Source of the DNA: Pseudomonadota bacterium
Lineage (GTDB): Bacteria > Pseudomonadota > Gammaproteobacteria > Steroidobacterales > Steroidobacteraceae
Length of the DNA: 41,237 bases
Reading direction: 5' to 3'
NCBI GenBank assembly: GCA_021797465.1
Contig: JAJZZR010000501.1
Span: forward strand, 1-41,237
Below the pieces are notes generated by a model. That model did no database searches. It saw only the letters and a list, made by a program, of their open reading frames with translations, and was not told the DNA's origin. Shown in pieces: positions 2,104 to 36,704 of this stretch (positions are counted from its first letter, which is position 1; each line of letters starts with the position of its first letter). The position numbers were made by a program, and so were the translations under genes.

Positions 2104-3488
2104 TTCAGCTCCGCCCCTACCAGTGCGCCGGCATAGCCAGCATCCGCGAGGCGTTCGGGCCGCTGCACAAGCGCGCGCCGCTGTATGTGTTGCCGACGGG
2201 TGCCGGCAAGAGCCTAACTTTCTCCTTTATCGCCCACGGCGCGGCCGACAAGGGCAACCGCGTCTATATCCTCTCGCATCGGCAAGAGCTGATCGACCAG
2301 ATATCGGGGGCGCTCGACCTCACCGGCACGCCGCACGGGTTCATCGCCGCAGGTTACCCCACCCTCGACGCGCACGTCCAGATCGCGAGCGTGCAGACGC
2401 TGGTGCGGCGGCTCGACCGCACGCCGCAGCCTGACCTCATCGTGATAGACGAGGCGCACCACGCCAGGGCCCAGACGTTCGAGCGCATCATCCGCGAGTG
2501 GCCGCGGGCGAAGCTGCTCGGCGTGACTGCGACGCCGATCCGGCTCTCGGGCGAAGGGCTCGGGACCATCTTTGACCACCTCATCACCGGACCCTCCATG
2601 CGCGAGCTGATCGAGGGCGGGTACCTCGCGCCGTACCGGCTATTCTCGCCGCCGACCGTGGACGCATCGGGGCTGCACAAGCGCGGCGGAGAGTTCGTGA
2701 CTGCCGAGGCCGAGGCACTTCTCGACCGTCCCGCCATCACCGGCTCTGCGCTCGAACACTACCGCCAGCACGCCGATGGACTGCCGGCGCTGGTGTTCTG
2801 CGTGTCGATCCAACACGCGAAATCAGTGGCGGACCAGTTCCGTGAGGCCGGGTATGCGGCGTTTTCCATCGACGGCACGATGGAGCGGACGGTGCGCCGC
2901 GGAGTGGTCGAGGACTTCCGGGCGGGAAGGATTAAGGTCGTCACATCCGTGGCGCTCCTGGAGGAGGGCTTCGATATGCCCGGCGCGCACGTTGGGATCT
3001 TCCTGCGCCCGACGCAATCGCTTGGCCTGTACCTTCAGCAGATCGGCCGAATCCTGCGGCCGTGCGAGGGCAAGACCCACGCGCTGTTGCTCGACCATGT
3101 CGGCAACTGCTATCGCCATGGGCTGCCGGACGAGCTGCGGCAGTGGGCCCTCGCGGCCGACGACGGCGAGGCCCGGCGCAAGCCGGGCGCCAGTGTACGC
3201 ATCTGCGCGTCTTGCTTCTGCGCGCTGCCCTCTCAGGCCAAGGCGTGCTCGGAGTGTGGCTACGAGTTTCCACCGAAGCCCCGCGAGATCGAGCAGCGCG
3301 ACGGCGAGCTCGCGGAGGTGACGCCGGAGATGCTGGCCGCTCAAGCGGCGCGACGCGCTGAGCGGCGCGAGCAGGGGCGCGCGCAGAGTTTGGAGGCGCT
3401 GCGGGAGATTGAGCGGCGGAAAGGCTTTCGGCGCGGGTGGGCAGAGCATGTCTATCACGGCAGGCTCGCTAAGAGGGCGCGGGCGTGA
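2100..3488 (+). CDS. Superfamily 2 DEAD/DEAH-box helicase
   Basis: 462 residues with an ordered set of SF2 motifs: Q-like LRPYQ at residues 4-8, motif I LPTGAGKSLT (about 31-40), motif II VIDEAHH (about 115-121), motif III VTATP (about 141-145), motif V TSVALLEEGFD (about 282-292) and motif VI QQIGRILRP (about 313-321). Residues 370-395 hold a small Cys cluster (CASCFC...CSECGYEF) that looks like a zinc finger. The C-terminus is Arg/Glu-rich coiled helix. It probably unwinds or remodels DNA for phage replication or recombination. GTG start overlaps the previous stop (GTGA), as does the start of the following MTase-like gene. Confidence 0.92.
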   Translation: MIQLRPYQCAGIASIREAFGPLHKRAPLYVLPTGAGKSLTFSFIAHGAADKGNRVYILSHRQELIDQISGALDLTGTPHGFIAAGYPTLDAHVQIASVQTLVRRLDRTPQPDLIVIDEAHHARAQTFERIIREWPRAKLLGVTATPIRLSGEGLGTIFDHLITGPSMRELIEGGYLAPYRLFSPPTVDASGLHKRGGEFVTAEAEALLDRPAITGSALEHYRQHADGLPALVFCVSIQHAKSVADQFREAGYAAFSIDGTMERTVRRGVVEDFRAGRIKVVTSVALLEEGFDMPGAHVGIFLRPTQSLGLYLQQIGRILRPCEGKTHALLLDHVGNCYRHGLPDELRQWALAADDGEARRKPGASVRICASCFCALPSQAKACSECGYEFPPKPREIEQRDGELAEVTPEMLAAQAARRAERREQGRAQSLEALREIERRKGFRRGWAEHVYHGRLAKRARA

Positions 3489-4156
3489 AGCCGCTCGCCA
3501 TCGACCTTTACTGCGGGCTCGGCGGCTGGTCCTCGGCGTTGCTCGCGGAGGGTTGGGACGTTGTGGGCTTTGACATCGAGCGGCACGTCTACGGCGAGCA
3601 CCGCTATCCCGCGCAGCTCGTGTTGCAGGACGTGCGCACCCTTCACGGGCGGCAGTTCAAGGATGCGGCGCTGATCGTGGCGAGCCCGACATGCACGGAA
3701 TTTTCTTACATGGCAATGCCATGGTCCCGCGCGAAGCAAATCCGGCGCGCGCTGCGAGGCGAGGGTGACTTTCCCGAAGGCTACACCGGCTCGCGGACCG
3801 TTGCGGACCTGACAGCGCTGTTCGATGCTTGCTTTCGCATCCAAGCCGAGGCGTCTGAGGCTGCCGGCCACCATATCCCGCTCGTCGTCGAGAACGTCCG
3901 TGGGGCGCAGGAGTGGGTCGGGCGAGCGCGGTGGCGCTGGGGTTCGTTCTACCTGTGGGGCGACGTGCCGGCGCTGATGCCTTGCGCCGTTAAGGCCCGC
4001 AAAGGTATGGGCAGCGGCAAAACATGGTTCTATCAAAACGGTGGCAACGGGCGCTCCGCAAGCTCCCGTTCTTTGGAGAGGCGGCAGTGGAGCGCCATGA
4101 TCGCCAAAATCCCCGACCCGCTGGCGCGGCATATCGCGCAGGTTTACCGACCGTGA
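3485..4156 (+). CDS. Short DNA cytosine-methyltransferase-like protein
   Basis: 223 residues. Motif I is AIDLYCGLGGWS (residues 5-16), the acidic SAM-ribose motif is VVGFDIE, motif IV reads SPTCTEFSYM where C5-cytosine MTases have PPCQ.FS, and motif VI is VVENVRG. A late RRQWSAMIAKIPDPLARHIA segment resembles the terminal motif. It is shorter than usual Dcm-type enzymes (over 300 aa) with little room for a target-recognition domain. The catalytic Cys is present but the first Pro-Pro pair is Pro-Thr. Likely role is modification of phage DNA against host restriction; activity is inferred. Confidence 0.8.
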   Translation: MKPLAIDLYCGLGGWSSALLAEGWDVVGFDIERHVYGEHRYPAQLVLQDVRTLHGRQFKDAALIVASPTCTEFSYMAMPWSRAKQIRRALRGEGDFPEGYTGSRTVADLTALFDACFRIQAEASEAAGHHIPLVVENVRGAQEWVGRARWRWGSFYLWGDVPALMPCAVKARKGMGSGKTWFYQNGGNGRSASSRSLERRQWSAMIAKIPDPLARHIAQVYRP

Positions 4157-4506
4157 CCTCCGAGCGCGACATACAGGCGCAGATTTTGCTCGCGCTCTCC
4201 CACGGCCCGACGCGGCTGCTGCGCGTCAATGCCGGGGTGGCGTGGCAGGGGACGGTCATCGAGCGCACGCAGCAGCGGCTGGTGCTCGCGCGACCGTACG
4301 CTATCCGCCTCGCCGCGCCAGGCGTGTCGGACCTCATCGGCTGGACGCATGGCCGCTTCGTCGCCCTCGAGGTCAAGGGTCCACGCGGGCGCATCACAGA
4401 CGAGCAGGCCGCCTTCATCGAGCTGGTGCGTCGCAGCGGAGGGCTGGCGGGGGTGGCGCGGTCTGTCGAAGAAGCTAAAGCCATCATTGAAGGGCGCGCG
4501 CCATGA
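4153..4506 (+). CDS. VRR-NUC domain nuclease
   Basis: 117 residues from the GTG at 4153, which overlaps the previous stop (GTGA). The centre shows the VRR-NUC core: GVSDLIGW (Asp of the active site), then FVALEVKGPRGR with the E-x-K pair, then DEQAAFIELVRRSGGLAGVA, the conserved ending of this PD-(D/E)XK nuclease family. Stand-alone phage VRR-NUC proteins act on branched or flapped DNA, so a role in replication or resolving intermediates with the neighbouring helicase is likely. A longer in-frame reading to 4024 would overlap the MTase gene by 130 nt and is unlikely. Confidence 0.9.
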   Translation: MTSERDIQAQILLALSHGPTRLLRVNAGVAWQGTVIERTQQRLVLARPYAIRLAAPGVSDLIGWTHGRFVALEVKGPRGRITDEQAAFIELVRRSGGLAGVARSVEEAKAIIEGRAP

Positions 4507-4733
4507 CCGACCCCCTCCGCTTCAACCCCACCGCGCGCCGCCAGCGGCTCAACGACCTCGCCGCGCAGTTCGGCCTCGACAACCACAGCCTCGGGCGCAT
4601 CATGGGGCGCACGTCCGAGGCCGTCCGCACGTGGCGCACCGGGGAGCGGCAGGTGCCGGAGCCGAGCCTGCGGCTGCTCGAGCTGGAGTTGGGGACGAGA
4701 GGGCCGAGGGGTATTGCCGCCGCCGAACCTTGA
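4503..4733 (+). CDS. Small HTH DNA-binding protein
   Basis: 76 residues. LNDLAAQFGLDNHSLGRIMG followed by RTSEAVRTWRTGERQVPEPS reads as a Cro/C1-type helix-turn-helix with the recognition helix around EAVRTW. The start overlaps the nuclease stop (ATGA). It is the second small HTH protein in the early operon; no partner or target can be read. It could control the replication genes that follow after the short 4734-4856 gap. Confidence 0.7.
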   Translation: MTDPLRFNPTARRQRLNDLAAQFGLDNHSLGRIMGRTSEAVRTWRTGERQVPEPSLRLLELELGTRGPRGIAAAEP

Positions 4734-4762
4734 GCGTACGCTAGCCCAGCGTCTACCTGCCC

Positions 4763-4885
4763 ATGGCCCGGACTGATCCCCGGAACAAGCCGCGCAGGGA
4801 AAAGCTCCCCCGTCTCCGGCCGGACGCATTTAACCCAGGGGACGAGAGAGACGGTCATGACATCGCGTCCCATCCGCAGCCGTAA
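4763..4885 (+). CDS. Possible tiny basic ORF (40 aa), doubtful
   Basis: An open frame ATG 4763 to TAA 4885 encodes MARTDPRNKPRREKLPRLRP plus 20 further residues. It fills most of the only gap in this operon (4734-4856) but lacks a clear Shine-Dalgarno and overlaps the next gene by 29 nt in another frame. The gap also holds GCTAGC and AGCGT sequence (4739-4752) resembling promoter elements seen elsewhere in the window. Listed as uncertain. Confidence 0.25.
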   Translation: MARTDPRNKPRREKLPRLRPDAFNPGDERDGHDIASHPQP

Positions 4886-4988
4886 CGCTTTTCGGCGCTG
4901 GCTGCTCTACATCCTCGACCTCCCCACCACGGCCACCTACGCCGAGATTCGAGCGGCGCTTGAGCGGCGCCTGGGGATATCGAAATGA
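4857..4988 (+). CDS. Small hypothetical protein (43 aa)
   Basis: 43 residues with a helix-rich sequence: RNAFRRWLLYILDLPTTATY followed by AEIRAALERRLGISK. A purine-rich stretch (GACGAGAGAGACGG) lies before the ATG. The pattern 'T-Y-A-E-I-R-x-A-L-E-x-R' looks like a short DNA-binding or winged-helix fragment but is too short to assign. Stop overlaps the next ATG (ATGA). Confidence 0.5.
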   Translation: MTSRPIRSRNAFRRWLLYILDLPTTATYAEIRAALERRLGISK

Positions 4989-5113
4989 AGCGCTGGACCA
5001 CAGACGCCAGCGCCGAGGCGGACTCTCGGCCAGGACCGCTCGCTCGCGCCGCGCTGCGCTCGAGGCTATGCCCGTGGTGGCTCGCCAATCTCCTGCTCGG
5101 GTGGCGGCTGTGA
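4985..5113 (+). CDS. Small hypothetical protein (42 aa)
   Basis: 42 residues: MKRWTTDASAEADSRPGPLA then a C-terminus rich in Trp/Leu (CPWWLANLLLGWRL). Evidence for expression is the ATGA overlap with the previous gene and the GTGA overlap with the replication gene. No family recognised. The short hydrophobic end could touch membrane, which is only suggestive. Confidence 0.4.
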   Translation: MKRWTTDASAEADSRPGPLARAALRSRLCPWWLANLLLGWRL

Positions 5114-7356
5114 GCCTCGCGATTACCCCCGCCTCGATAGAGGCGGTCGAGGCCCTCGCGCGCAGGTTTCCGGTATTCCCATGCCGGGCCACTGAGGAAA
5201 CAGTCACTATCAACGGCCGGCCGCGCACGCTCAAACCCAAGACCCCGCTAGTCCCGCGCGGATTCCATGCCGCCAGCCAAGACCCGGAGCAGATCCGAAG
5301 CTGGTGGCGGCGCTGGCCGGACGCGCTCGTGGGCGTGCCCACCGGCAGCCTCACCGCGCTCATCGTCGTCGACTATGACAGTCCAAAGGCCGACCGCGCG
5401 GGCCGGGAATGGCTCGAGGCGCACGCCGATGCGCTGATGAGCACGCGCAGCCACACGACACTTTCAGGCGGCCGCCACTACCTGTTCCGCGCCAACGGCA
5501 CACAATACCGCAGCGGGGCTTGCGTCGAGCTCGCCGGCAGCCGCCGCGGCGGCGTCGACATCCGGGCCGAGGGTGGCTATATCATCTGGTGGCCACTCCA
5601 CGGCGGCACGGCATCCGGTGATCCGGCCGACCTCCCCCTCGGGCTGCTCGAAGAGCGGGCCATCGTCCCACGCGAAGTGGCCCCGCTGCCCGCGAACTCG
5701 CCCGCCCGCTGGCGCCGCGATGAGCGAGTCCTGCGCGACGTGCTCACTTACTTTGACCCGGCCGACTATGACGGGTGGATCAAGGCCGGCATGGCCATCC
5801 ACCTCGCCTCGAGCGGGTCGGACGAAGGCTTCGCCCTCTGGCACGCTTGGTCGGCAGGCGAACTCACGGCCTCGGCGCCGACGAACTATGCCGGTGTCGA
5901 CGACTGCCGATACCGGTGGGCGAGCTTCACTCCGTCCGGGTCAGGGGGAGCCGTGGTCGGCCTCGGCTCGCTCATCGTCGCAGCCAGGGCCAAGGGCTAC
6001 GTTCCACGTGAAACGACCCCTGCCGACCCGCCGCCGGACGAGTCGCCACCCGTCGACGCCTATGTCGACGACCCGGAAGCGGGCGCGAGGCCGGCTGTAG
6101 CGGCACTAGATGACTTCTACGCCTACCTGCCAGCGCACCAGTATCTCTATGTCCCTACCCGCGAACTCTGGCCAGCGGCCAGCGTGAACGCCTCCGTGCC
6201 GGTCGATACCGGCAAGCCGAGCCAAATCCTCGACCTGAGCCGGCCCGTTCACCAGATGACGTGGGCACCCGCCGAGGGCATGCTCATCGAGGGTCGATTG
6301 GTCTCTGACGGCGGCTGGATCGCGAGGCCAGAGGCGCGGGTATTCAACCTCTACCGGCCGCCGCAGCCCGCCAGCGGCGACGTGCGGCTGGTAACGCCGT
6401 GGCTCGACCATATCGCCAGGGTCTATCCCGACGATGCCGCGCACCTGATCTCATGGCTCGCGCACCGCGTCCAGCACCCCGGCGAGAAGATCAACCACGC
6501 TATCGTGCTCGGCGGCAGCCAAGGCATAGGCAAAGACTCGCTGCTCGAGCCGGTCAAGTACGCCGTCGGGCACTGGAACTTCTCGGAGGTCACTCCGACC
6601 CAGCTCCTGGGCCGCTTTAATGGCTTCCTGAAGTGTGTGATCCTGCGCATGAGTGAGGCCCGCGATCTCGGCGATATCGACCGCTACGGCCTTTACGAGC
6701 ACCTGAAGCCGTTCACTGCGGCGCCCCCTGACGTGCTGCGCGTCGACGAGAAGAACCTGCGCGAGTATTCGGTCTTCAACGTCTGCGGCGTCATCATCAC
6801 CACGAACCACATCGACGGCATCTACCTGCCGCCCGATGACCGCCGCCATTATGTCGCCTGGTCGGAACTCACCAAGGAGGAATTTACCCCCGACTACTGG
6901 CGCGGCCTATACCGATGGTACCGGGACGGCGGCGTCGGGCACGTCGTCGAGTTCCTGCGCACGGCAGACCTGTCCGGCTTCGACCCCAAGGCGCCCCCGC
7001 CGCAGACCGAGGCGTGGCATCGCATGGTCGACGCCGGCCGCGCGCCCGAGGATGGCGAGATTGCCGATGTGGTCGACGCGCTCGGCTCCCCTGGGGCGCT
7101 CACCGTCGAAGACCTCCATCTCTACGCCTCGGACGATTTTCGCGCGTGGCTCAAGGACAGGCGCAACTCGAGGCAGATTCCTCACCGGCTCGAGGCCGTC
7201 GGCTACGTGCCAGTGCGCAACGAATATCAGACAGACGGCCGGTGGAAAGTGTGTGGTAAAAATGTCGTGGTGTACGCCAAGCGCCAGCTTACGCTTAGGG
7301 ACCGCATAGCTCACGCTAAAGCGCTCTGCGAGGGTCGCCGTCCGTCAAGTCCGTGA
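5110..7356 (+). CDS. Prim-Pol primase/polymerase fused to SF3-type helicase
   Basis: 748 residues from GTG 5110, chosen for the GTGA overlap. Residues 10-190 are a bifunctional primase-polymerase (Prim-Pol) domain: metal-binding DYD at 88-90, SGGRHYLF with His123, and GVDIRAEGGYI with Asp150. Residues about 205-295 match PriCT_2 (YFDPADYDGWIKAGMAIH and FALWHAWS). Residues about 425-640 form the phage SF3/DUF5906-type ATPase: Walker A GGSQGIGKDS (468-477), Walker B-like ILRMSEARD (511-519) and the sensor ITTNH (563-567). It is the likely initiator and replicative primase-helicase of the phage. The candidate origin lies immediately downstream. An upstream in-frame ATG-type start at 4960 would overlap two small genes and add low-complexity Arg-rich sequence. 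Confidence 0.92.
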   Translation: MSLAITPASIEAVEALARRFPVFPCRATEETVTINGRPRTLKPKTPLVPRGFHAASQDPEQIRSWWRRWPDALVGVPTGSLTALIVVDYDSPKADRAGREWLEAHADALMSTRSHTTLSGGRHYLFRANGTQYRSGACVELAGSRRGGVDIRAEGGYIIWWPLHGGTASGDPADLPLGLLEERAIVPREVAPLPANSPARWRRDERVLRDVLTYFDPADYDGWIKAGMAIHLASSGSDEGFALWHAWSAGELTASAPTNYAGVDDCRYRWASFTPSGSGGAVVGLGSLIVAARAKGYVPRETTPADPPPDESPPVDAYVDDPEAGARPAVAALDDFYAYLPAHQYLYVPTRELWPAASVNASVPVDTGKPSQILDLSRPVHQMTWAPAEGMLIEGRLVSDGGWIARPEARVFNLYRPPQPASGDVRLVTPWLDHIARVYPDDAAHLISWLAHRVQHPGEKINHAIVLGGSQGIGKDSLLEPVKYAVGHWNFSEVTPTQLLGRFNGFLKCVILRMSEARDLGDIDRYGLYEHLKPFTAAPPDVLRVDEKNLREYSVFNVCGVIITTNHIDGIYLPPDDRRHYVAWSELTKEEFTPDYWRGLYRWYRDGGVGHVVEFLRTADLSGFDPKAPPPQTEAWHRMVDAGRAPEDGEIADVVDALGSPGALTVEDLHLYASDDFRAWLKDRRNSRQIPHRLEAVGYVPVRNEYQTDGRWKVCGKNVVVYAKRQLTLRDRIAHAKALCEGRRPSSP

Positions 7357-9419: not shown

Positions 9420-9724
9420 ACTGCAAGCAGGGCGATTTGGCGCTGATAATCGGGCCGGCTGGGCGATCTTGCGTGGGCAAGGTTGTGCGATGCGTTGAAT
9501 TATTGCCGGTCGATACGAGATTTATCATCCCATCAGGACAAGTACGATATACCTCCAAGCCTGGCTGGTTGACCGATACTGTTGTGGTCGAAAATCCGGT
9601 TGACGGTTTGGACCTCCACAATCGCGGCGTCAGTGACCGCTTCTTGATGCCCCTCCGCCCTCCCGCCGCCGACGAAACCGACACCGCCGAGCGGGGCGTG
9701 ACGGAGGGGCTTAGTCTTACCTAA
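9416..9724 (+). CDS. Hypothetical beta-rich protein (102 aa)
   Basis: 102 residues from ATG 9416 with GGAGGCGAGCC before it. MNCKQGDLALIIGPAGRSCV reads like an SH3/KOW-like small beta barrel (G-D-x-x-x-I-x-x-x-x-x-x-G-x-x-x-x-V), a pattern frequent in phage hypotheticals. The C-terminal part is Pro-rich (MPLRPPAADETDTAERG). No role can be assigned. Confidence 0.6.
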   Translation: MNCKQGDLALIIGPAGRSCVGKVVRCVELLPVDTRFIIPSGQVRYTSKPGWLTDTVVVENPVDGLDLHNRGVSDRFLMPLRPPAADETDTAERGVTEGLSLT

Positions 9725-9738
9725 CATTGGAGTTAAAC

Positions 9739-10269
9739 ATGACACAGCTTGAAATCGCATCCCAAGTTATCCCATCGAGACATGCCATGCCAGACAACAC
9801 CGACTCTCCGCGCAAGATCATCGAGGGCATCGTGCGTGCGCATCAGTTCGATTACGACGCCTCAGCCGAGGCCGTGCTCGAGGAAATGGCCGAGAACGCC
9901 GCGCTGCGCGAGTACGTCGAGGCCGAGGGCGCGCGGTATTGCGTGCGCTCGGTTGCCAGCGGCAGCCGAAGAAGCAGCTCCGGGAGCTCAGAGGGCTCTC
10001 CTGCCGCTGCCGGTCAGCCGTTCAGACGACACTACACGGCCATTGCGACGTTCTTGGACGATTTCACCCTTCCCGGCGGCATGTCCATCGGCGATGCGCG
10101 AGCAATCGACATCAAGAAGGCCATCGAGTATTACGGCGCGCAGGAGGCCGGCATGCGCAAGCAGCGCAAGTTCCTCGAGGCTGTGGGCAAGAAGCTGGCG
10201 GCCGGCAAGCGCGTGCGCGCGGTATTCTCAGCCGCGCAGTTGATGCGCATGCAGCGGGAGGCACGATGA
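9739..10269 (+). CDS. Hypothetical protein with a Ser-rich insert
   Basis: 176 residues. ATG 9739 is preceded by TTGGAG, which decides the start over an in-frame TTG at 9727. The N-terminal half (SPRKIIEGIVRAHQFDYDAS, then EMAENAALREYVEAEGARY) and the C-terminal half (KKAIEYYGAQEAGMRKQRKF) are ordinary helical sequence. Between them lies a low-complexity stretch of about 24 residues, SGSRRSSSGSSEGSPAAAG, encoded by a strongly palindromic DNA block at 9957-10009. The insert may be a mobile palindrome that kept the frame. No function recognised. Its stop overlaps the next ATG. Confidence 0.6.
   Translation: MTQLEIASQVIPSRHAMPDNTDSPRKIIEGIVRAHQFDYDASAEAVLEEMAENAALREYVEAEGARYCVRSVASGSRRSSSGSSEGSPAAAGQPFRRHYTAIATFLDDFTLPGGMSIGDARAIDIKKAIEYYGAQEAGMRKQRKFLEAVGKKLAAGKRVRAVFSAAQLMRMQREAR
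9957..10009. repeat. Palindromic insert inside the preceding gene
   Basis: CAGCGGCAG (9957-9965) pairs with CTGCCGCTG (10001-10009). Inside it AGCTCC (9976-9981) faces GGAGCT (9983-9988), and further GAGG/CTCT repeats follow. It has the outer-stem-plus-inner-hairpin plan of the cloverleaf units at 10284 onward but lacks their GGCCA/TGCC frame, so it may be a degenerate or unrelated palindrome. Confidence 0.5.
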
Positions 10270-11495
10270 CAGCGAAGGTCAGCGGAGGGGGGAGGGTCAG
10301 ACCCGGCGTGCCCGCAAGGGCCATCAGCGCCGTGCCCTCTCCCCTCCCCTCAAACTCCGGCGGACGGGGGAAGGCCAATAGGCGCTTGCCTGCGAAGGCC
10401 AGCAGCGCCGTGCCCTCTCCAGTCCGCCGGTCCTCGAAATCCGGGAAGCGGGGGAAGGCCACTGCGGTCGTGCCTTCGAAGGCCAAAAGAGTGGCGCCAT
10501 CCTCCGCTTCTCCGGACCTGAAAGCGCGGAGGGGAGGCCGCGTTGTACGTGCCAGCAATGGCCACACTGAGACTGCCTCCCCTCCCGCCCTCTCGCCCAC
10601 CATCGACCGCGTGTTCTTACTCTACGAGCAGCGGCGAGACCTGCTCAGCACCGCGTCCGGCATGACCAACCGGCTCAAGGCGCTGACGAAGATCAGGCGC
10701 GGGTTGCCAGTGAGCGCGAAGGTGTCGGAGGCGATGATCCTCGAGACCCCCTACCCGCCCATCGATACGCTGCTGTCCGCCCGCGGCGTGCTGCGCGACC
10801 ATCTCGGCAAGATCGAGAAGGAGCTCGAGCAGTTCGCCGAGGACCTGCCGGCCTATGCGTCGTTCTGGAAACCGCAGCGCGGTCTGAGCGGGCTCGGGCT
10901 GGCGCTCATCGCGGGCGAGGCCGGCGACCTGGCCGGCTACTCGACGCACTCTAAGCTGTGGCGGCGGTTCGGCTTGCACGTTGACGGTGACGGCCGGGCC
11001 TATTGGAAGCGGCGTCCTGGGCTCAGCGCTGAGGACTGGGAGACTGCCGGCTACTGTCCGCGTCGCAGGTCGATTATTTTCCAGTTGACCGACTCGCTGC
11101 TCAAGGCGCAGATACGCAAGGACGAAAACGACCCGGAAAAGCGCGTGGCGCTCGGCGAATATGGCGCGCTATACCTGCGGGAGAAGGCGCGCCAGCAGGA
11201 GAAAGCCAAGGCCGAGGGTCTGACGGTCTGCCCCGCCGCGAAGATTCCAGCCAAATCTGCATCCAAGTATCGCAGCGATGGTCATATCCACAACAGAGCC
11301 GCGCGGTATGTCGGCAAGAAGCTGCTGCGCGATTTGTGGAAGGTTTGGAGACGGGAGGCCAGCATCGTGTTGCCAAAAGGCCATACGGCATATGCCTCCC
11401 GCTCTCCATCGAAATCGGCGGGGAGGGTCAGAGTGCCCGTGCCCGAAAGGGCCAGGATTGCGTTGCCCGCCCCGCCGTCCTCTCCTGCAACGTGA
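10266..11495 (+). CDS. IS110-C-terminal-like protein embedded in structured repeats
   Basis: 409 residues from ATG 10266 (ATGA overlap). Residues 1-105 are low-complexity Arg/Lys/Ser/Pro sequence made by four structured DNA repeats. Residues about 106-360 are the core: a helical LYEQRRDLLSTASGMTNRLK stretch, then RGLSGLGLALIAGEAGDLAG and STHSKLWRRFGL, which resemble the helix-hairpin-helix region of the IS116/IS110/IS902 transposase C-terminal domain. The core closes with HNRAARYVGKKLLRDLWKVW. Residues 360-409 are again made by two repeats. No N-terminal DEDD (RuvC-like) catalytic domain of IS110 is seen and the catalytic Ser is not certain, so it is probably not an autonomous transposase. 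An internal start near 10661 is possible. Family similarity is from memory. Confidence 0.65.
   Translation: MTAKVSGGGRVRPGVPARAISAVPSPLPSNSGGRGKANRRLPAKASSAVPSPVRRSSKSGKRGKATAVVPSKAKRVAPSSASPDLKARRGGRVVRASNGHTETASPPALSPTIDRVFLLYEQRRDLLSTASGMTNRLKALTKIRRGLPVSAKVSEAMILETPYPPIDTLLSARGVLRDHLGKIEKELEQFAEDLPAYASFWKPQRGLSGLGLALIAGEAGDLAGYSTHSKLWRRFGLHVDGDGRAYWKRRPGLSAEDWETAGYCPRRRSIIFQLTDSLLKAQIRKDENDPEKRVALGEYGALYLREKARQQEKAKAEGLTVCPAAKIPAKSASKYRSDGHIHNRAARYVGKKLLRDLWKVWRREASIVLPKGHTAYASRSPSKSAGRVRVPVPERARIALPAPPSSPAT
10284..10347. repeat. Cloverleaf repeat unit A
   Basis: Outer stem GGAGGGGGGAG (10284-10294) with CTCTCCCCTCC (10337-10347), 11 pairs including one G-T. Inside are two hairpin modules 24 nt apart: GGTCA-GACCCGGC-GTGCC and GGCCA-TCAGCGCC-GTGCC, with stems GGGT/GCCC and AGGGC/GCCCT. 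Confidence 0.8.
10357..10430. repeat. Cloverleaf repeat unit B
   Basis: Outer stem CCGGCGGAC (10357-10365) with GTCCGCCGG (10422-10430), 9 perfect pairs, extended inward by GGGGA with TCTCC. Inner modules 24 nt apart: GGCCA-ATAGGCGC-TTGCC (stem AGGC/GCCT) and GGCCA-GCAGCGCC-GTGCC. Confidence 0.85.
10440..10516. repeat. Cloverleaf repeat unit C
   Basis: Outer stem TCCGG (10440-10444) with CCGGA (10512-10516) and GAAGCGG (10445-10451) with CCGCTTC (10504-10510), 12 pairs with one bulged T. Inner modules 24 nt apart: GGCCA-CTGCGGTC-GTGCC with the 6-bp stem GAAGGC/GCCTTC, and GGCCA-AAAGAGTG-GCGCC. Confidence 0.85.
10526..10588. repeat. Cloverleaf repeat unit D
   Basis: Outer stem AGGGGAGGC (10530-10538) with GCCTCCCCT (10575-10583), extended by GCGG (10526-10529) with CCCGC (one bulge). 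Inner modules 24 nt apart: GGCCG-CGTTGTAC-GTGCC and GGCCA-CACTGAGA-CTGCC. The unit is read in a different codon phase from units B and C. Confidence 0.75.
11347..11407. repeat. Cloverleaf repeat unit E
   Basis: Outer stem GGAGA (11347-11351) with TCTCC (11403-11407), C52-G401 pair, and GGGAGGC (11353-11359) with GCCTCCC (11394-11400), one bulge. Inner modules 22 nt apart: GGCCA-GCATCGTG-TTGCC and GGCCA-TACGGCAT-ATGCC (stem AGGC/GCCT). It lies downstream of the transposase-like core. Confidence 0.8.
11416..11477. repeat. Cloverleaf repeat unit F
   Basis: Outer stem CGGCGGGG (11416-11423) with CCCCGCCG (11470-11477), 8 perfect pairs. Inner modules 24 nt apart: GGTCA-GAGTGCCC-GTGCC (stem GGGT/GCCC) and GGCCA-GGATTGCG-TTGCC (stem GGGC/GCCC). 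Last unit before the stop codon of the gene. Confidence 0.85.
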
Positions 11496-11734: not shown

Positions 11735-12166
11735 ATGTCAGAGTACGTCCCGTACAGCCCCGAATTAGGTCGGAAAATCTGCGAACGCATCGCGAACGGC
11801 GAAAGCCTGCGCAAGATATGCTCAGAGCCGGGGATGCCGGCGCGCATGAGCGTGTTTCGGTGGATACGCGCAAACGGTGATTTTGCCGAAGAATATGCCG
11901 TCGCCCGGCAGATGCAAGGCGACTACATGGACGACCTGATCCTCGAGACCGCGTACGAGTGCACCCAGTCTAACGCCAAAGCCTCGAGCGTAAAGATTTC
12001 CGCATTCCAGTGGCGCGCCATGAAGCTCCGGCCCAGGGAGTACGGCGAGCGCAAGTCGGTCGAGCTCTCAGGCCCTGACCGCGCGCCCCTCACCAGCGTC
12101 AACCTAAACACGACAAATCCGGTGGAAGCGTCCCGCGTCTACCAAGAACTCATCGCTGGAAAATAA
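11735..12166 (+). CDS. terS: Terminase small subunit
   Basis: 143 residues. Residues 8-65 have the helix-turn-helix of small terminase subunits: ICERIANGESLRKICSE then SVFRWIRANGDFAEEYAVAR, where 'F-x-x-x-Y-x-x-A-R' is the usual ending. The following DDLILETAYEC and WRAMKLRPREYGER segment is the conserved oligomerisation core ('K-W-x-x-x-[KR]-x-x-P-x-x-Y-G'). The C-terminus (ASRVYQELIAGK) probably contacts the large subunit. It recognises phage DNA for packaging. Its stop overlaps the large-subunit start (TAATG). Confidence 0.92.
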   Translation: MSEYVPYSPELGRKICERIANGESLRKICSEPGMPARMSVFRWIRANGDFAEEYAVARQMQGDYMDDLILETAYECTQSNAKASSVKISAFQWRAMKLRPREYGERKSVELSGPDRAPLTSVNLNTTNPVEASRVYQELIAGK

Positions 12167-13795: not shown

Positions 13796-14014
13796 ATGGC
13801 AACCCGAGGCGCAATTGTGAGCACGAACACATCGACACCGAACCGCGTGATCCCGCGCAAGTGGGCGCCAGACAAGAGCGGTCAAGACATCCTGCGCAGA
13901 GCGATCATCTCCGGCCAGCACGAAGCCGAATCGCAGCAGCAGGCGATGCGATTGCTGCGGGGCGAGAGCGTGCCGGGTCGCGACCGCAAAAAGCTGACCT
14001 CGAGAGCGCGATGA
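13796..14014 (+). CDS. Small basic protein between terminase and portal (72 aa)
   Basis: 72 residues: MATRGAIVSTNTSTPNRVIP then a helical, Gln/Arg-rich part (QHEAESQQQAMRLLRGESVP). ATG 13796 has no clear ribosome site; a GTG at 13817 is an alternative. Its stop overlaps the portal start (ATGA). No family recognised. Position suggests a packaging or head accessory. Confidence 0.55.
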   Translation: MATRGAIVSTNTSTPNRVIPRKWAPDKSGQDILRRAIISGQHEAESQQQAMRLLRGESVPGRDRKKLTSRAR

Positions 14015-36343: not shown

Positions 36344-36622
36344 ATGAGCACTCCGAATCCATTGACTCCCATTGAGCAGGCCGCGCTCCCGTCGGCTGTA
36401 GCCGTACTGCAAGCGGTGCAGGCGTTCATTACCAACATGGGCACCGACCCGGCGCAGTGGGCGCTGAAGTTCCCCGGCGCACTTGTGACGCTTCAGGGCG
36501 CAGTCATGTTGCAGGCTCCGCTGCTTGCGAATGCCGAAGGCGCGGCTGTCAGCGCGGCAGCCAGCAGCACGGTGTCCGGCTGGATCACGAAGCTCCAGGC
36601 CGCCGAAAAGCCGGCGGCGTAA
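36344..36622 (+). CDS. Small Ala-rich phage protein (92 aa)
   Basis: 92 residues, AAGGTGAT before the ATG. IEQAALPSAVAVLQAVQAFI then TNMGTDPAQWALKFPGALVT, then SAAASSTVSGWITKLQAAEK. This matches a recurring phage protein found near lysis genes from memory, with a helical 'G-x-x-P-x-x-W-x-x-[KR]-[FV]-x-[GA]-A' region. Not obviously membrane-spanning. Function unknown. Confidence 0.6.
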   Translation: MSTPNPLTPIEQAALPSAVAVLQAVQAFITNMGTDPAQWALKFPGALVTLQGAVMLQAPLLANAEGAAVSAAASSTVSGWITKLQAAEKPAA

Positions 36623-36629
36623 CCACTGG

Positions 36630-36704
36630 TGCGCGTTGGAGCAGCGGCAGCTCGTCGGCCTCATAAGCCGAAGGTCCCAGGTTCGAGTCCTGGACGCGCT
36701 ACCA
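36630..36704 (+). tRNA. Initiator-like tRNA, anticodon CAT
   Basis: Complete cloverleaf of 75 nt including CCA: D-stem GAGC/GCTC with 7-nt loop, anticodon stem TCGGC/GCCGA with loop CTCATAA (anticodon 36662-36664), variable AGGTC, T-stem CCAGG/CCTGG with loop TTCGAGT, and A73-CCA encoded. The acceptor strands TGCGCGT and ACGCGCT leave position 1-72 as T-T, unpaired. A11-T24 is present, and the anticodon stem ends in three G-C pairs. These match initiator tRNA features, as does the near identity of GTTGGAGCAG-type sequence to bacterial fMet tRNA. Lysidine-modified Ile2 is the alternative for CAT. Confidence 0.9.

Follow-up and report, generated by a model that had tools for sequence, protein, structure and literature searches.

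What are the six hairpin-forming units that lie, four before and two after, around the core of a transposase-like gene in a contig binned with a Steroidobacteraceae bacterium, and why are they written inside a gene? The contig (GenBank assembly GCA_021797465.1, JAJZZR010000501.1, forward strand) is considered here over its positions 1 to 41,237, and this whole stretch is called the window. Our analysis leads us to conclude, with high confidence, that the units belong to a phage TIGR-TasA system whose stem-loop guide array is embedded in the protein-coding sequence of the operon it belongs to. The gene, named tasA below, and the six units, all of which lie where an initial annotation of this DNA had seen them, are as follows.

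10266-11495, forward strand: tasA, 409 amino acids (aa), with an N-terminal tail, a Nop-like core (about 10602-11345) and a C-terminal tail; contains all six guide units.
10281-10350, forward strand: guide unit A, spacers GACCCGGCG and TCAGCGCCG; box C1 is TCA.
10357-10430, forward strand: guide unit B, spacers ATAGGCGCT and GCAGCGCCG.
10443-10512, forward strand: guide unit C, spacers CTGCGGTCG and AAAGAGTGG; box D2 is CG.
10524-10588, forward strand: guide unit D, spacers CGTTGTACG and CACTGAGAC; box C1 is CCG and the codon phase is shifted.
11347-11406, forward strand: guide unit E, spacers GCATCGTGT and TACGGCATA; the linker is 2 nt shorter.
11414-11479, forward strand: guide unit F, spacers GAGTGCCCG and GGATTGCGT; box C1 is TCA.

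When aligned, the units follow one order: outer stem, GG-CCA, 9 nt, UG-CC, a short linker, GG-CCA, 9 nt, UG-CC and the outer stem again, with CCA as box C, UG as box D and an outer stem whose sequence varies from unit to unit. The blocks between the boxes (the spacers) are exactly 9 nt long in all 12 cases in the window, a regularity absent from the initial annotation, and the boxes are canonical at 20 of 24 positions, the exceptions being TCA in A and F, CCG in D and CG in C. The linker forms a short hairpin, often with a GNRA-like loop; that of unit E has one base pair fewer and keeps the 4-nt loop. Among 90 distinct units, including relatives, all 180 spacers are distinct and 35 of the 53 tetraloops are GNRA; such caps suggest that the units work as RNA. 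The two spacers of a unit show neither complementarity nor likeness to each other beyond that of shuffles.

Folded as DNA, each unit is better than its dinucleotide shuffles (z between -2.7 and -3.9; 0 to 2 of 200 shuffles equally good). Compensatory change in outer stems that differ and still pair had been recognized in the initial annotation, and it extends to relatives: in an ungapped alignment of 43 units (5 from the window and 38 from relatives) all 15 stem pairs carry changes on both sides, and the covariation score is 0.548 (shuffles: 0.172); none of 500 shuffles reaches it, and slid versions come nowhere near. This figure is inflated, since the 38 relatives' units had been preselected by a scan that scores stems, and an unbiased check was therefore made with a strict box pattern that has no stem criterion and that matched 54 stretches in IMG/VR. 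The 22 matches beside a tas gene and on its strand (two of them copies of a third) have a mean stem score of 8.4, against 2.4 for shuffled flanks, with scores of at least 6.0 in 21 and 4.6 in the remaining one, and their linker ends are paired in 21 of 22; the 38 matches elsewhere (some of them copies) are at chance level, with a mean of 2.8 against 2.2, a highest score of 5.6 and paired linker ends in 11 of 38. Two loci that are copies of a third, L032 and L041 (copies of L025), were kept in this check and dropped from several of the counts given below. The supported fold is a nested rod, not the cloverleaf with two small hairpins that had been proposed: the pairing of such hairpins gains little (0.123 against 0.098, with 3 of 500 shuffles as high).

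A covariance model of the units, together with a search for covariation among homologues, had been suggested in the initial annotation as the way to check the structure. Loci were chosen by their TasA proteins alone (with a 7-row alignment, in IMG/VR), 59 being fetched and 54 retained after five duplicates were dropped (L101, L102, L123, L136 and L156). At E ≤ 0.02 the model finds 146 units in 36 of these 54 loci, all 146 on the strand of tasA; with the threshold relaxed to E ≤ 0.5, and with loci that overlap this set only in part, 2 of 195 units are on the opposite strand. Training units came from 9 of the 36 loci, and the other 27, by comparison of contig names, had given the model none. Unit E, the sole window unit outside the training set, is recovered at E 1.4e-6.

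The core protein had been read as IS110-like. It is a nuclease-less TasA, not an IS110 transposase, because both its profile and its predicted fold match TasR and TasH best. Up to E 10, a profile of 20 core relatives matches only two distinct sequences in the Protein Data Bank (PDB), TasR (9mty, 1.9e-23) and TasH (9.5e-6; 21kl plus seven further entries). In Foldseek, the core as predicted by AlphaFold (pLDDT 86; the alignment for the fold left out L007, L063 (X in translation), L051, L060 (fragment) and copies) matches 9mty first (E 1.7e-7), then TasH and then IS110 enzymes, with VIA Z of 16.6 for TasR, 16.0 for TasH and 13.3 for ISCro4. The resemblance to IS110 is nevertheless real and runs through a common Nop-like RNA-binding domain: the match to a PHROG 'transposase' family covers the C-terminal part of the protein, from residue 185, at profile positions 87-250 of 277, and the catalytic DEDD/RuvC-type N-terminal domain of IS110 was not found by Pfam or PHROG. 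Moreover, the 409-aa protein matches no Pfam family up to E 1, so that no HNH or RuvC nuclease domain was found, nor a Y1 (HUH) transposase domain of the kind that marks REP/RAYT systems. IS110 recombinases with a bridge RNA (IS621, ISCro4) thus have a related C-terminal fold (VIA Z 12.8 to 13.3) and, according to the literature, a guide RNA with split guides; unlike them, the protein studied here has no catalytic N-terminal domain that could be found and is accompanied by many units rather than one bridge RNA. Archaeal and eukaryotic box C/D small nucleolar ribonucleoproteins (snoRNPs) share the box C/D logic and, in the literature, a distant Nop fold. The layout of the units, and the presence of Nop5 and Prp31 among the fold matches, could accordingly be taken to mean that the guides are aimed at RNA, as in snoRNPs, and not at DNA. 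However, the closest folds are those of the DNA-targeting TasR and TasH, whereas Nop5 and Prp31 reach a Z of about 8 only, a value that unrelated coiled coils also attain; in Pfam, the gene upstream of tasA gives just a weak TPR-like match, in one relative, in a survey that included no search aimed at fibrillarin. We regard RNA targeting as highly improbable.

Comparison with known systems gives the units a name. As set out in the main text of Faure et al. (2025, PMC12045711), stem-loop TIGR arrays carry two 8-12-nt spacers between box C (CCA) and box D (UG), have variable palindromes in place of edge repeats, adjoin TasA and are processed to single units, as seen by RNA pull-down. Because every feature of these arrays that sequence can test is found in the window units, the units are, on that evidence, a TIGR-Tas stem-loop array of the kind described in 2025. 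The earlier idea of a structured RNA linked to the enclosed protein was thus correct, and the statement that no described element has this plan no longer stands, such arrays having been described already (PMC12045711, main text). The published stem-loop arrays with TasA are alike in having a solo Nop-domain protein, several units around the gene and a mostly viral distribution. In contrast, the units studied here lie within the frame of tasA and, in relatives, of the upstream gene as well; they have 9-nt spacers and GNRA-type linker hairpins, and their spacers differ in place between close relatives. Dual-repeat TIGR arrays with TasR or TasH share a homologous Nop core, the CCA/UG boxes and paired 9-nt spacers, but the array described here is without conserved edge or loop repeats, its outer stems and linker letters being variable, and no nuclease domain was found in its protein. 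One such classic dual-repeat array is apparent by eye in another locus (L005, IMGVR_UViG_3300022670_001120, 5924-6450), 3' of another tas-like gene, where TGAAACCCA-like repeats alternate with CGAGTCA-like repeats around spacers of about 9 nt. In the passages of PMC12045711 that were searched, published arrays are located upstream and/or downstream of tas, and neither in-frame units nor in-place spacer change is mentioned there (supplements were not covered); nor were in-frame guides found elsewhere in the printed passages searched, those of PMC12385481 included, with supplements and most subscription journals outside the coverage. An array set in open frames of its own operon, with spacers that diverge in place, therefore looks new.

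How the units are fitted into the frames can be seen first in the window, where the 112 residues N-terminal to the TasA core are mostly encoded by units A to D. Box C is in one codon phase in A, B, C, E and F, giving a KA-x3-VP-like peptide repeat, and in another phase only in D; the second half of unit E is also phase-shifted, because its linker is 2 nt shorter. That B, C and D occupy different phases, as had been claimed, is thus right for D and wrong for B and C, which share one. Across the relatives, the stop-to-stop frame of tasA takes in 66 of the 146 units (31 on the N-terminal side of the core, 34 from the core to the stop, and 1 at the core edge), and a further 55 fall in an upstream open reading frame (ORF) of at least 120 codons; among the others, 8 upstream units and 9 downstream ones have no ORF of this length across them, and 8 downstream ones do. 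For the units in the tasA frame, box C is in phase 1 in 38 cases, in phase 2 in 28 and in phase 0 in none, although 17.7 of 66 would be expected in phase 0 given the phases that are free of stops (P 7e-11 if units are independent); an earlier set of loci, derived from the units, agrees (38 in frame, none in phase 0). Phase 0 would place mostly cysteine codons at each UG. In the upstream ORFs, phase 2 prevails (46, against 9 in phase 1).

The gene upstream of tasA is often a recognizable partner gene, whose profile was matched 5' of tasA in 48 of 81 loci (copies counted). It holds 41 of the 63 upstream units (in 21 loci; 37 in phase 2 and 4 in phase 1), and the other 22 lie outside it, including the long arrays of two loci in ORFs further upstream; in these (L138, 1055-2095, and L154, 1005-1621) many units follow one another about 110 nt apart, several of them within a long ORF well upstream of tasA and the partner. 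The partner gene matches no Pfam family, apart from a weak TPR-like match in one relative. A fold model of the partner of one relative (L018) is mediocre overall (pLDDT 68, pTM 0.38; about 95 in the C-terminal part) and gave no PDB match with E ≤ 0.001, the best VIA Z being 3.1; the units fall at or beside a segment of the model with pLDDT below 50 (residues 60-118). Taken at the level of sequence, the array in this group occupies linkers and tails of proteins that its own operon encodes.

Four related phages (L141, L142, L143 and L144) have all six of their units in common, at identical places. Their mean pairwise identity is 94.4% outside the units (1181 operon columns), 89.7% in the units outside the spacers (310 columns) and 29.2% in the spacers (108 columns). 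There are no indels in the spacers, and in 5 of 72 spacer pairs 6 or 7 of the 9 bases are common, the others having 0 to 5; the variable blocks end at the boxes in either codon phase. The 48 spacers give no in-frame stop, where 5.1 would be expected if they were distributed over the sites at random (P 0.001) and 5.0 if random letters served as spacers (P 0.005); for the window alone the same test gives P 0.49. The spacers thus behave like unconstrained sequence that has been screened for being translatable, a pattern that is difficult to account for unless they both serve as guides and are translated. Two of the four (L141 and L143, IMGVR_UViG_2894228515_000002 and _000005) presumably come from the same isolate genome, judging by the names of the contigs; the TasA operons of these two phages agree in their units and differ in their spacers. 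As a possible diversifier, a reverse transcriptase was sought with PF00078 and found in none of the four records, which may be fragments.

These data bear on two other explanations. In the first, the tails would be hypervariable protein under diversifying selection and the DNA palindromes a by-product of a peptide repeat. It would account for units in open frames and for the KA-x3-VP-like repeat of five of the six window units, but not for two codon phases across loci and within one gene, for 15 of 15 stem pairs that covary at the nucleotide level, for GNRA caps or for variable blocks bounded by the boxes in either phase, and we consider it very unlikely; that the units are not a simple protein repeat had been argued before, and the two phases and the nucleotide-level covariation bear this out. 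In the second, the units would be structured sites in the mRNA, bound by TasA only for regulation of its own operon, with no guide role. The units do sit in the tasA mRNA, and Tas proteins bind box C/D hairpins (PMC12045711, main text). However, regulation of this kind has no need for paired blocks of exactly 9 nt that are randomized between relatives (29% identity), and we hold it to be unlikely.

The variability of loops rather than stems between close relatives also argues against a third explanation, in which REP-like or Rickettsia-palindrome-like mobile elements were inserted into permissive protein tails, with the IS110-like protein as their mover. In favour of such elements are the IS110-related fold and the location of the palindromes, which lie in coding regions but not in the folded core; against this, every one of the 146 units has the orientation of tasA, no catalytic domain was found and, in the 4.27-Mb genome bin, all five places that match with 0 or 1 mismatch are within this locus. 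We therefore consider the REP-like mobile element of the initial annotation extremely improbable. With up to 3 mismatches the bin has 63 places, and those with 2 or 3 are mostly elsewhere. Weak matches to the N-terminal tail in two other contigs (C365 and C65) were discarded, as no such units are seen there by eye.

Several results weigh against a guide array in the frames of its own operon that is aimed at DNA. From the published cut pattern of Tas (8-nt 3' overhangs, C-5 rule), the predicted top strand of a target is spacer A, 0-2 nt and the reverse complement of spacer B. With these gaps, the phages' own DNA outside the arrays gives 8 matches with 3 mismatches and none better, and the excess over mispaired spacers, for which 0.77 matches with 2 mismatches and 4.3 with 3 are expected, is not significant. 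Cross-targets among the four related phages amount to 13 matches with 3 mismatches, none better, and three control geometries give 11-15 such matches plus a few with 2. Exact sites were sought for units C, D, E and F, and A and B were searched within the contig only: the site of unit D is in none of 217 genomes of the family and not in IMG/VR, those of E and F are in none of 58 genomes of the genus and not in IMG/VR, and that of C is absent from its own bin and occurs twice in IMG/VR, in unlike ORFs. Moreover, 18 of the 54 TasA loci have no unit at E ≤ 0.02, 25 of the 146 units are covered neither by the tasA frame nor by an upstream ORF of 120 codons, the starts of tasA in relatives are unproven, so that the 31 units on the N-terminal side are less certain than the 34 on the C-terminal side, and spacer turnover comes from a single group of four phages, no second group of close relatives being found among the 59 loci or in phage or plasmid collections. 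Variant boxes may be one cause of the TasA loci without units, because palindromes of the right size in the cultured Rhizobium phage RHph_X2_25, whose host is Sinorhizobium americanum X2_25, escape the model. In that phage (L007, MW960032.1), at 3341-4990, a tasA homologue is flanked by at least 8 palindromes with 24-36 nt between the arms; some can be read by eye as CCA-9-CG units, and the covariance model calls none.

The best self-match in the window, of unit A at 36446-36467, has 17 of 18 bases and an unexpected 4-nt gap. The ORF that contains it belongs to no known PHROG family, and a gene at 36630 follows 163 nt further on. With gaps of 0-14 and 74 units, one match with at most 1 mismatch is found, against 0.1 per round with shuffled spacers and 2 in 292 mispaired pairs, and the self-match was not counted as a target, being not significant against either control. 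The gene at 36630-36704 is a phage-encoded tRNA-Met (CAT).

The operon sits among genes of a tailed phage. Pfam and PHROG matches identify a small terminase at 11735, a large terminase at 12166, a portal at 13861 and a primase at 4960, on a contig that is 1 of 567 in the bin. Two overlapping genes, at 9727-10269 (180 aa) and 10266-11495 (409 aa), lie just 5' of the terminase genes, and the first is accompanied by these features.

9727-10269, forward strand: upstream gene, 180 aa; its stop overlaps the tasA start (ATGA).
9957-10012, forward strand: palindrome within the Ser/Gly-rich linker that the upstream gene encodes (inverted repeats I4/I14); z of the DNA fold only -0.81.
10256-10261, forward strand: Shine-Dalgarno-like GGGAGG, 4 nt 5' of the tasA ATG at 10266, read from the sequence.

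The upstream gene of the window is homologous to the genes 5' of tasA in two relatives (L051 and L096; phmmer E 1.3e-7 and 2.7e-5). It has no Pfam match and no recognizable guide unit inside, and it was not picked up by the larger profile of the partner family, in which it is placed by its position and by likeness judged by eye. Relatives carry guide units at the position of the linker that matches the palindrome at 9957-10012; the boxes cannot be recognized in the window copy, which is possibly, though uncertainly, a decayed unit. A second palindrome, at 9649-9710, lies just 5' of the upstream gene (arms GCCCCTCCG and CGGAGGGGC, 44 nt between them), and boxes were not recognized in it either. 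At E ≤ 1e-8, tasA is found in none of 395 other genomes of the same bacterial order, drawn from a larger group, and the system therefore seems to travel with the phage. Elsewhere, TasA and units occur together on a large bacterial contig (L078, Bauldia sp. metagenome-assembled genome (MAG) JAHCJZ010000002.1, 379 kb), probably in a prophage; a TasA-like hypothetical protein is encoded 5' of a terminase gene in Microcystis phage Mvi-JY20 (L171, PP438412.1); and a good unit (40.2 bits, E 4.5e-6) lies at 944-1005 of L084, in a Comamonadaceae MAG (PCUV01000009.1), with no TasA homologue found in the 8 kb covered there.

By analogy with the biochemistry of TIGR-Tas, transcription, processing, binding of the guide RNA (tigRNA) and DNA targeting may be pictured as follows. 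The mRNA of the upstream gene and tasA would be translated, and the array would be tolerated in flexible peptides, namely the TasA tails and, in relatives, the partner's linker. This transcript would also fold into hairpin units, so that message and guide precursor would be one mRNA. A TasA dimer would hold each unit by two box C/D pairs (CCA/UG), and the two 9-nt spacers would remain available for base pairing within a single 18-bp DNA site, each with a different strand. Lacking a nuclease, TasA would bind and bend the site without cutting it. What follows for the level of TasA and for the biological target is our own guess. Bound TasA could keep a rival element from being transcribed, replicated or integrated, or it could act on the host; in the main text of PMC12045711, TasA is suggested to aid integration of the phage. 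Since excision of guides would break the message, guide production should damp the synthesis of TasA, and the supply of guides would be opposed to that of TasA. Tentatively, and with a little less than even confidence, we propose as one joint scheme a dual-coded array in which the release of guides consumes the message and spacers are replaced in place by targeted diversification, stops being removed by selection; units would be neither lost nor gained, and stems and boxes would be left untouched.

If this is how the system works, message and guide would compete for one transcript, and the conserved upstream gene, which has no Pfam family, would be a second component. Guides within translated sequence would be missed by searches for noncoding arrays. 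Moreover, arrays locked in frames would keep their places, so that orthologous units may be compared between phages, and one such comparison already reveals turnover of the spacers in place.

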